A program made the translations under genes and the position numbers. 64,000 bases of DNA from IMG/VR virus record IMGVR_UViG_3300043410_001066, positions 1 to 64,000 of that record. One strand, 5' to 3'. Below the pieces are notes generated by a model that was given only the letters and a program-made list of their open reading frames with translations, had not been told where the DNA came from and did not search any database. This document shows positions 6,782-36,842 of the stretch, one piece after another; within the stretch, counting starts at the first letter, position 1; the number at the start of each line of letters is the position of its first letter. This stretch comes from a virus.

Positions 6782-6793
6782 GTTTAGACACGG

Positions 6794-6852
6794 ACAATTT
6801 GGACATTTTTTAAGTGTTTTACATCACACCGCAAAAGGTATAAATCGGACAT
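6794..6852. promoter_or_regulatory. Motif island 5: two GGACAT elements
   Basis: ACAATTTGGACAT (6794-6806) and ATAAATCGGACAT (6840-6852) flank a degenerate Crp-like site, AGTGTTTTACATCACA (6822-6837). A CACGTC core follows at about 6859. Confidence 0.55.
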
Positions 6853-7296: not shown

Positions 7297-7473
7297 TTAG
7301 TAAGCCTGAGTAGTGATTACTAAACGGCGTTCATTGCGTGTTGCAATGTTTTTCTTAGCGATTGGGAAGGGTAACTTATAGAGTGAAACATGTGTTTCTG
7401 TTTCAGTAGTTACAACACCTTCAAGAAACTTACCATTCTTCATGGTGATTTCTGTCCAAAGTTTGTTAGTCAT
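7297..7473 (-). CDS. 58-residue basic early protein, unknown
   Basis: The product starts MTNKLWTEITMKNGKFLEG and runs through a Thr-rich strand (VVTTETETHVSLYKL) to a basic end (KKNIATRNERRLVITT). It is first in the operon read leftward from the divergence region, so it is likely among the first proteins made. No family is recognised. Confidence 0.75.
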   Translation of the reverse strand: MTNKLWTEITMKNGKFLEGVVTTETETHVSLYKLPFPIAKKNIATRNERRLVITTQAY

Positions 7474-7521: not shown

Positions 7522-7544
7522 ATAGTAGCACCCACCACCGACAA
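7522..7544 (-). promoter_or_regulatory. Early promoter for the 7473-6881 operon
   Basis: On the minus strand: TGC-extended TACTAT (7522-7527) with TTGTCG (7539-7544) 11 nt upstream. Confidence 0.75.
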
Positions 7545-7696
7545 ATTGGAGAGGACAAATTGGACATATGGGATATATGGGATTGTTATCTACATCACAC
7601 TAGTTATCCACATAGTTATCCACAGGGCACGTGCCATGTCCAATATGTCCGTTTTGTACTGTGGTGTATATCACACACGACACGCCGATGTAGGAC
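7545..7696. other. Candidate replication origin / divergence switch
   Basis: Two perfect DnaA boxes TTATCCACA (7604-7612, 7616-7624) and a one-mismatch box TTATCTACA (7586-7594) lie in direct orientation. They are flanked by inverted copies of ACAAAnnGGACATAT (7555-7569 and 7643-7657). The palindrome GGCACGTGCC is at 7626-7635 and a Crp-like site TGTGGTGTATATCACA at 7660-7675. CGACACGCC follows (7678-7686). It sits exactly where leftward and rightward genes diverge. Function as an origin is an inference; DnaA could also act here as a transcription factor. Confidence 0.6.
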
Positions 7697-7869
7697 TTGA
7701 CTTTTTGATATTTATCTGCTAGTATTACATACATAGAAAATTAAATAAAGATAAATCAAGGTCAATGAGCCTACCAAATAAGATAACAAATTGTTATATG
7801 AGCGTAGCAAATAAGTGACCTAAATCACACCCCCAAATGCTTGACTTTTGGCAGGGTATGTGCTAAGAT
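7697..7869 (+). promoter_or_regulatory. Rightward promoter arm with two TTGACT promoters
   Basis: P1: TTGACT (7697-7702), 17 nt, TAGTAT (7720-7725). P2: TTGACT (7841-7846), 17 nt, TAAGAT (7864-7869), both with TGC before the -10. Between them lie the leader AAAATTAAATAAAGATAAAT, two ATGAGCnTAnCAAATAAG boxes and AGTGACCTAAATCACA (7814-7829). The arm mirrors 6660-6781. The 7474-7919 interval otherwise holds no gene. Confidence 0.7.
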
Positions 7870-7919: not shown

Positions 7920-8135
7920 ATGATTACACTAGATAAAAACTACATTAAGTCCGCTAAGTACGGACAGTTCAACTTAGAACAGCGTATCGCTATCGCTGCT
8001 CAGAAAGTAGCCAATGGCGAGGTAGTATCCTTCCGTGGTGCTTCCGCTGATACCTATAACAAGGTTATGCGTCTTGCTAATCGCATTAAGCAAGATATTG
8101 AATTCCCACAGTGCCCATGTGGGGAGTGTGAATAA
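7920..8135 (+). CDS. 71-residue early protein with C-terminal Cys cluster
   Basis: The product starts MITLDKNYIKSAKYGQFNLEQ and is helical (RIAIAAQKVANGEV, TYNKVMRLANRIKQDI). It ends FPQCPCGECE, a Cys cluster that may bind metal. It is the first rightward gene, 50 nt past the -10 of the second TTGACT promoter, with AAAGGTAG as ribosome binding site. No family is recognised. Confidence 0.75.
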   Translation: MITLDKNYIKSAKYGQFNLEQRIAIAAQKVANGEVVSFRGASADTYNKVMRLANRIKQDIEFPQCPCGECE

Positions 8136-34703: not shown

Positions 34704-34736
34704 TATTTTGAATAACTATCAACAATAACTTTAGGG

Positions 34737-34761
34737 AGAGTTTTGCTTTTTAGAAAACTCT
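34737..34761 (+). other. Hairpin overlapping the reductase promoter
   Basis: AGAGTTTT (34737-34744) and AAAACTCT (34754-34761) form a perfect 8-bp stem ending inside the TGC of the extended -10. It may be an operator or the terminator of the preceding operon. Confidence 0.5.
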
Positions 34762-34769
34762 GCTATAAT
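34741..34769 (+). promoter_or_regulatory. Promoter for the ribonucleotide reductase
   Basis: TGC-extended TATAAT (34764-34769) with a weak -35 (TTTTGC). The leader is about 30 nt; no cobalamin riboswitch is seen. Confidence 0.65.
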
Positions 34770-34802
34770 TAACTCTATTCCGTTTTTGAAAGGACGAAAC
34801 AC

Positions 34803-36842
34803 ATGTCAGATTTTTTTAGTTTTAGATTAACAGATGAGTTTGTAAATAATTTTGCAACAGCACCAAATCCTTTTGGATTTAAGGATGCAGCAGAAAACTC
34901 ACTTGGAGAAATTACCTTTATTCGTACATATTCTCGTGTGAAGGAGGATGGAACTAAGGAAAGATGGCATGAGGTTTGCCGTCGTGTAATCGAGGGCATG
35001 TACTCAGTACAAAAGAATCATGCTAAGGAAAATCGTCTTCCATGGAATGACTATAAGGCTCAGAAATCAGCACAGGAAGCCTTCCAGAGAATGTTTGAAC
35101 TTAAGTGGACACCACCAGGAAGAGGTATGTGGACATTTGGAACAGCCATGACAATGGAGAAGCGTAACTCTGCTGCCCTTCAAAACTGTGCAATGGTATC
35201 AACAAAGGATCTTGATAAGAATGATCCAGGAGCATTGTTTGCATGGGTTATGGATGCATTAATGCTTGGTATTGGCGTTGGATTTGACACTGTAGGACAG
35301 GATAAGGGTTTTCAGATCTATGCTCCAACAGAACCAGCAGCGATTTATGATATTCCAGACACTCGTGAAGGATGGGTAGAATCGGTTCGCCTTTTGCTAA
35401 ACTCTTATCTTCGTTCAAATCAGCCAATCCAGCAGTTTAACTATGACCTCATCCGTCCTCTAGGAGCCCCAATTAAAGGCTTTGGAGGGGTCGCCAGCGG
35501 TCCAGCACCACTTATCCAACTACATACACAGATCGATAAGGTAATCGGCAGTAGAGCAGGAGAAACTCTTGATTCTCGTGCTATTACAGATATCATTAAT
35601 CTCATTGGTACCTGTGTTGTTTCTGGAAATGTTCGTCGTTCTGCAACACTTGCTTTAGGTGCAGCAGGAGACGAAGACTTTATTAATTTAAAGAATGCTG
35701 AAGTGTTTCCAGACAGAAACTCATTTGATCCAGAAAACCCAGGATGGGCCTGGATGTCAAATAACTCAATTTCTGCAACAGTCGGAATGGACTATGAAAA
35801 GTACACCGATCTGATTGTTAATAACGGAGAGCCAGGATTTATCTGGCTTGATGTTGCTCGTAACTATGGTCGTCTAGCAGATCCTGCAGATGGAAAGGAC
35901 TATCGTGTTATGGGCTTCAATCCTTGTGCGGAGCAGCCATTGGAGTCGTATGAACTTTGTACTCTTGTAGAGGTTCATTTAAATCGACATGAATCCAAGG
36001 AGGACTTCCTCAAGACATTGAAGTTTGCTTACCTTTATGGCAAGACAGTTACATTGCTTCCAACACACTGGCAGCAAACAAACGGTATCATGCAAAGAAA
36101 CCGTCGCATTGGAACATCTCTTACAGGCATCGCATCATTTGCTGATCAAAAGGGTCTTCCTATCGTCCGTGAGTGGATGGACGAGGGATATAACACAATC
36201 CGTAAGTATGACCGTCAATATTCAGAATGGCTTTGTGTTCGTGAATCGATTCGTGTAACAACTGTTAAGCCATCTGGTTCTGTATCAATTCTTTCTGGTG
36301 CAACTCCTGGAGTTCACTGGGGACCTGGAGGAAACTTCTTCCTTCGTGCAATTCGTTTTGGTGAAACAGATCCAATGCTTCATTTATTTAAGGCAGCGGG
36401 ATACAAGATTGAAAAAGACCTTGTATCAGCAAATACACAGGTAGTTTATTTCCCAGTAAAGTCTGGTCACCCAAGATCAGAAAAGGATGTAACGCTATTT
36501 GAAAAGATTGCTCTCGCAGCAACTGCTCAGAAGTATTGGTCAGACAATGGTGTTTCTGTTACACTATCTTTTGATAAGGAAACAGAAGCAAAGCATGTTG
36601 CACCAGCACTTCATATGTATGAGGGGCAACTCAAGGCAGTCTCATTCCTTCCAATGGGAAACACAGTTTATCCACAACAGCCATACACACAAATTACAGA
36701 AGAAGAGTATGAGTCTTATGTAGGAGTTTTAAAGCATATTGACTTCTCTGCTATTTATGATGGAAACGATAATCTTGAGGCACAGGGTGAAGCCTATTGC
36801 ACAACCGATTATTGCGAAATTAAGGTAGAAACTAAAAAGTAG
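34803..36842 (+). CDS. nrdJ: Adenosylcobalamin-dependent ribonucleotide reductase (class II)
   Basis: The 679-residue enzyme resembles the monomeric RTPR type. Conserved marks are NCAMVST, GIGVGFDTVG, GNVRRSA, NPCAEQPLESYELC (active-site Cys/Glu), KPSGSVSILSGATPGVHW (substrate pocket) and a C-terminal redox pair AYCTTDYC. It makes deoxyribonucleotides for phage DNA using B12 radicals, independent of oxygen. Length is slightly below the 739 residues of the Lactobacillus enzyme. It is transcribed from its own promoter. No partner subunit is needed. Confidence 0.9.
   Translation: MSDFFSFRLTDEFVNNFATAPNPFGFKDAAENSLGEITFIRTYSRVKEDGTKERWHEVCRRVIEGMYSVQKNHAKENRLPWNDYKAQKSAQEAFQRMFELKWTPPGRGMWTFGTAMTMEKRNSAALQNCAMVSTKDLDKNDPGALFAWVMDALMLGIGVGFDTVGQDKGFQIYAPTEPAAIYDIPDTREGWVESVRLLLNSYLRSNQPIQQFNYDLIRPLGAPIKGFGGVASGPAPLIQLHTQIDKVIGSRAGETLDSRAITDIINLIGTCVVSGNVRRSATLALGAAGDEDFINLKNAEVFPDRNSFDPENPGWAWMSNNSISATVGMDYEKYTDLIVNNGEPGFIWLDVARNYGRLADPADGKDYRVMGFNPCAEQPLESYELCTLVEVHLNRHESKEDFLKTLKFAYLYGKTVTLLPTHWQQTNGIMQRNRRIGTSLTGIASFADQKGLPIVREWMDEGYNTIRKYDRQYSEWLCVRESIRVTTVKPSGSVSILSGATPGVHWGPGGNFFLRAIRFGETDPMLHLFKAAGYKIEKDLVSANTQVVYFPVKSGHPRSEKDVTLFEKIALAATAQKYWSDNGVSVTLSFDKETEAKHVAPALHMYEGQLKAVSFLPMGNTVYPQQPYTQITEEEYESYVGVLKHIDFSAIYDGNDNLEAQGEAYCTTDYCEIKVETKK

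Follow-up and report, generated by a model that had tools for sequence, protein, structure and literature searches.

The window, i.e., the whole stretch of 64,000 nt that was analysed, is part of a virus record of 71,023 bases. At about 7.6 kb the direction of the genes switches, with leftward genes on the left and rightward genes following on the right. The first leftward early gene (7297-7473, minus strand) encodes a protein of 58 aa, for which relatives were found. A leftward early promoter with the extended -10 element TGC-TACTAT (7522-7530, minus strand) was recognized from its sequence and from homologous promoters in relatives, which carry TGTCAGACCCCC..TGCTATACT at this place; its start is predicted. 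Four repeats spaced by 9 bp on the plus strand (GGACAA, GGACAT, GGATAT and GGATTG, the last two degenerate; 7553-7585) are probable protein-binding sites, and are followed by a CRP-type palindrome, TGTTATCTACATCACA (7584-7599, plus strand, 9/10), which ends 4 nt before the first of two exact DnaA boxes, TTATCCACA. The boxes occupy 7604-7612 and 7616-7624 on the plus strand. To their right lie the palindrome GGCACGTGCC (7626-7635), an inverted pair of GGACAT elements 9 bp apart that is kept in most relatives (7636-7650, minus strand), a CRP-type palindrome, TGTGGTGTATATCACA (7660-7675, plus strand, 9/10), whose centre is at about -64.5 relative to the predicted rightward start, and the motif GACACGCC (7679-7686, plus strand), which is conserved just 5' of early promoters. 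Rightward promoter 1 (TTGACT - 17 bp - TAGTAT with an extended -10; 7697-7725, plus strand) was identified by sequence and aligned in relatives. Promoter 2 (TTGACT - 17 bp - TAAGAT; 7841-7869, plus strand), likewise identified by sequence, is a repeat of promoter 1, and its CRP-type palindrome is AGTGACCTAAATCACA (7814-7829, plus strand, 9/10). The first rightward gene (7920-8135, plus strand) encodes a protein of 71 aa. The two exact boxes are located between one leftward and two rightward sigma70-type promoters, and their position between the leftward -10 at 7522 and the rightward -35 at 7697 is the one expected of boxes at a DnaA-regulated promoter.

The preliminary description had proposed a DnaA-dependent origin at this site, citing two perfect boxes and a near-perfect copy in direct order, 12-18 bp apart, between inverted GGACAT elements and beside a palindrome, at the point where gene direction switches. 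These motifs were recovered: the two perfect boxes are present in direct order, the start-to-start distances are 18 and 12 bp, GGACAA and GGACAT at 7553 and 7562 (plus strand) are mirrored by ATGTCC at 7636 and 7645, and both the palindrome and the switch are at the site. Two exact boxes 12 bp apart also constitute a cluster of consensus DnaA boxes of the kind found at origins, and the 71-kb record contains four exact boxes against 0.95 expected. A copy with one mismatch, TTATCTACA, does exist at 7586-7594 (plus strand), but it is included in the palindrome TGTTATCTACATCACA, which aligns with CRP-type sites in four relatives (L520, L159, L163 and G006) and corresponds to TGTGATATACACCACA in L520 and to TGTGAGGTACATCA in L159. 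Because the third "box" falls on the CRP-type site of L520 in the alignment, it is better regarded as the left part of a TGTGAN6TCACA palindrome. At the DNA level, no match to the site was found among GenBank phages. All DnaA-box and CRP matches were scored against consensus sequences, from which the specificities of the host's DnaA and CRP may differ.

Using the 71-aa gene as the query, 13 orthologous loci were picked by this neighbouring gene, so that the choice was blind to the boxes. Exact boxes were present in 3/13 loci, in two copies each and on the opposite strand, and the other 10 had no box within 420 bp even at one mismatch; box conservation at the orthologous place, as expected of an origin, was thus not found. 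The GGACA repeats, CRP-type palindromes and TTGACTTT promoters persist in most of the 13 loci. L520, a closer relative as judged by the leftward gene, has the same tandem pair with its CRP-type site directly before it. In several relatives box pairs are followed by CACGTG or CACGTC. With 15 occurrences against 14.6 expected in the early region of relatives, CACGTG alone was not enriched, and it was rejected as a motif in its own right.

The composite of boxes, CRP-type palindromes, 9-bp GGACA repeats and GACACGCC recurs at early promoters across relatives. We defined the early zone as 15 kb to the left and 3 kb to the right of the site. Excluding the origin-like element described below, the early zones of 10 genomes contained 37 exact boxes against ~2.2 expected, compared with 12 against ~11 expected outside, but the zone bounds were set after the boxes had been seen to cluster there, and such counts overstate significance because homologous sites lack independence. 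In the early zones of 13 genomes there were 126 CRP-type sites (at least 9/10), where 12.6 were expected, and outside there were 22, where 52.7 were expected. A CRP-type site of at least 8/10 was located within 70 bp of 37 of the 46 early boxes outside the origin-like element, compared with 1/24 boxes at that element and 2/21 elsewhere, and the commonest offset between box and CRP-type site was 4 nt. A scan with TCACANTAGTTATNCACA revealed 53 viral contigs, most with the same surroundings, and a good left half-site (at least 4/5) was present in 37 of them.

The CRP-type centres lie at -64.5 (18 cases), -74.5 (5) and -54.5 (4) from the predicted starts of the TTGAC promoters. This 10-bp phasing is expected of class I activators, and TGTGAN6TCACA at a phased upstream distance is the arrangement of class I CRP promoters, with the starts here being predicted ones. 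GACACGCC was observed 58 times in early zones (1.0 expected) and once outside; it is a putative binding site 5' of promoters. Among same-strand GGACA elements the dominant spacing is 9 bp (33 pairs in 13 genomes). In the window, GGACA elements are found at 124, 2413, 5653, 6792-6852 and 7553-7650, often as 9-bp tandems. On each side of the divergence they face against the direction of transcription, an orientation somewhat like that of the oriented operators of other actinophages. The early leftward promoters of relatives also include a second type, TGTCAG-(about 10 nt)-TG-N-TATAnT, which has no normal -35 box.

The record is a 71-kb fragment of an actinophage of ~115 kb that is kin to the Streptomyces Stanwilliamsviridae. 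A search with the head protease revealed hundreds of relatives in IMG/VR, the longest being 105-119 kb, and the protein is ~40% identical over its whole length to those of Stanwilliamsviridae members, in keeping with the homologous head genes expected of a related actinophage. A WhiB domain was found in 7/7 long relatives and also in phage Faust; it is absent from the record of the window, which is a fragment. The homology to Stanwilliamsviridae and the WhiB domain in relatives and in Faust make an actinomycetotal host likely. The tandem 21-mer of the origin-like element was also tried as a route to the host, but this sequence occurs in many bacterial genomes spread over many phyla and is uninformative. 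A search of 8 records for DnaA or CRP DNA-binding domains found none. A phage-encoded DnaA or CRP was therefore rejected as the ligand, and the boxes and palindromes are likely to be bound by host proteins. In the relative G021, genes for a Pol III alpha subunit, a DnaB-like helicase, a primase and RecA were identified. The ribonucleotide reductase gene (window 34713-36831) has 89% DNA identity to G021, compared with 63-83% in other aligned stretches.

Tandem boxes occur in two settings in relatives, i.e., in the divergent promoter region and in a separate conserved element. The latter consists of TTATCCACA-GGT-TTATCCACA, an AT-rich tract and, beyond it, three AGTGGAG repeats at 10-bp intervals. 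The 40-bp core of the element was found in 48 contigs, and 39 distinct copies align over ~120 bp. Conserved boxes together with an AT-rich tract and phased repeats are the features expected of an origin, and they are found in this element in relatives. Nearly all relatives have it, at a distance of 10-14 kb leftward from the promoter region where both could be placed; its positions include 1029 in G002, 39436 (oriented) in G006 and 50,656 in G021. The element is absent from our record, in which the best match to the 40-bp core has 16 mismatches. Record position 1578 corresponds to 56,359 in G021, and by this synteny the element would lie ~4 kb beyond the left end of the record, ~11 kb from the 7.6-kb site. 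G011 is an exception, in which the tract and repeats are kept and the boxes are degraded, which counts against an absolute need for the boxes. The candidate element resembles bacterial oriC and iteron origins of plasmids in its tandem consensus boxes, AT-rich tract and helically phased 10-bp repeats, gathered in a conserved block of ~120 bp, but it differs in its carrier, a tailed phage that encodes a polymerase and a helicase of its own. A clear DnaA-trio was not seen in it. A plasmid search for related sequence matched only the box pair. We consider this element the likelier phage origin than the 7.6-kb site. The AGTGGAG repeats resemble weak inverted DnaA boxes (GTGGA core). The alignment folds better than column shuffles (z of -7.3, the shuffles not preserving dinucleotides), with apparent pairing between CCAC of the boxes and GTGG of the repeats, so that the element may or may not form a structured RNA.

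A DnaA-dependent origin at 7.6 kb, either primary or auxiliary and perhaps activated by transcription from the divergent promoters, would account for the two consensus boxes with the same 12-bp tandem spacing as in the origin-like element, for the preservation of the tandem in L520 and for an AT-skew minimum near the site in most relatives. However, the AT skew follows gene orientation, the boxes are missing or otherwise arranged at most orthologous sites, and a conserved AT-rich tract with phased repeats was not seen at this site. Furthermore, the boxes lie within a promoter-control array common to other early promoters, and a DnaA-box element situated 10-14 kb leftward in relatives is far better conserved. 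The GC skew suggested earlier as a check also follows gene direction and reaches its cumulative minimum elsewhere in relatives; because skew follows transcription, it decides neither way and was rejected as an origin criterion. An origin at this site appears quite unlikely. Host DnaA may plausibly be recruited, as the preliminary description supposed, but recruitment for a replication origin at this site is not supported, whereas its other suggestion, sensing of the cell cycle, fits a promoter-control region.

It is also unlikely that the boxes are decoys through which amplified phage genomes titrate host DnaA and prevent the host from initiating further replication rounds, in the manner of datA-type sites, which are DnaA titration sites. 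Genomes carry few boxes (only 3 in G011), and their positions track promoters and CRP-type sites instead of being spread out, although several long relatives do have 6-12 exact boxes concentrated in the early region and box presence is kept while the arrangement turns over. Recognition by a phage-encoded protein other than DnaA, with the match to the DnaA consensus being incidental, could be imagined for a phage with its own replisome (Pol III alpha, DnaB-like helicase, primase and RecA) and many early proteins without assigned function. We regard this as very unlikely, since 9-mers that vary in order and orientation match the bacterial DnaA consensus perfectly, the DnaA C-terminal domain was not found in the 8 phage records searched, and the tandem 21-mer of the origin-like element is shared with many bacteria. 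The lack of enrichment of one-mismatch boxes in the window (28 found, 21.9 expected) would agree with box-like words having come together by chance in an intergenic region rich in AT. Such a coincidence is extremely improbable, given that 0/400 simulated first-order Markov genomes contained a pair of exact boxes on the same strand and within 40 bp and that boxes are strongly enriched in the early zones of relatives.

Taken together, the site is probably a control region for divergent early promoters in a freshwater actinophage, receiving host DnaA and CRP/GlxR-type input, with replication starting elsewhere, most likely at the tandem-box element 10-14 kb to the left. The resemblance of the 12-bp tandem arrangement to that of the origin-like element counts against this control-region reading. 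In the proposed mechanism, a host CRP/GlxR-type regulator would bind the palindromes, one of them 4 nt from the boxes, and activate the early promoters. Host DnaA would bind the adjacent box pair and modulate these promoters by activation, repression or gating, so that the two regulators jointly set early transcription according to host state, i.e., a nutrient signal and the replication state. CRP activation from class-I-like positions is the more firmly supported half of this model; as many orthologous sites have no box, DnaA would be at most an accessory input. More tentatively, a family of freshwater actinophages may have its early promoters wired to two host state sensors through a composite CRP-type/DnaA element with a preferred 4-nt geometry, so that early transcription would require both the nutrient signal and the replication state of the host, while the separate conserved element would load the phage's own replisome via host DnaA.

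To our knowledge, few phages use host DnaA. In lambda, host DnaA binds boxes near the phage promoters pR/pO and stimulates transcription that serves replication (PMC8203912; PMC3985674), providing a precedent for DnaA acting on phage transcription. However, the lambda boxes lie by its own origin region, whereas here exact boxes are repeated at several early promoters, which are distant from the origin candidate, and mostly lie beside a CRP-type site. CRP-type regulators in Actinobacteria include GlxR and CRP-Mt. GlxR shares the CRP consensus TGTGAN6TCACA (PMC5449483). As at class I CRP promoters, this palindrome is found 5' of sigma70-type promoters with 10-bp phasing, but here it is on a phage in which no CRP domain of its own was detected, and its partners are DnaA boxes, with 4 nt as the preferred offset. 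A literature search of partial coverage revealed no paper that dealt with the origins of these phages or with CRP sites at early promoters of phages. With its combination of sites, this early-promoter arrangement adds a variant to the known uses of host regulators by phages. If the model is correct, the recurrent CRP-type/DnaA pairing would be a direct reading of host physiology at the start of infection by a phage of freshwater Actinobacteria.

The Stanwilliamsviridae phages Faust, Moab, Blueeyedbeauty and MulchMansion share capsid-gene homology with our phage (and Faust also WhiB), as well as DnaA-box clusters in a gene-free gap of 1.3-1.5 kb near 122-124 kb. They differ in that their CRP-type sites show no excess over a reversed-pattern control. 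Faust and Moab have the same 25-base tandem, located in a stretch of ~1.5 kb that lacks annotated genes, and Blueeyedbeauty and MulchMansion contain, respectively, two and four exact boxes in comparable gaps. The box-cluster gaps of the isolated Streptomyces phages are at 123.2-124.7 kb in NC_070783.1, 122.0-123.6 kb in MT114162.1, 123.1-124.6 kb in NC_048720.1 and 122.6-123.9 kb in MT897905.1. AGTGGAG repeats were not found in Blueeyedbeauty and MulchMansion, the two searched. With the conserved element and the box clusters in isolated Streptomyces phages, the replication start of large actinophages would become testable in culture. Tandem exact boxes are also found near the left end of Microbacterium phage Phabia (MW365950.1), in non-coding sequence at 342-362 and 662, and Squashvirus records related to Phabia match the same box-bearing stretch.
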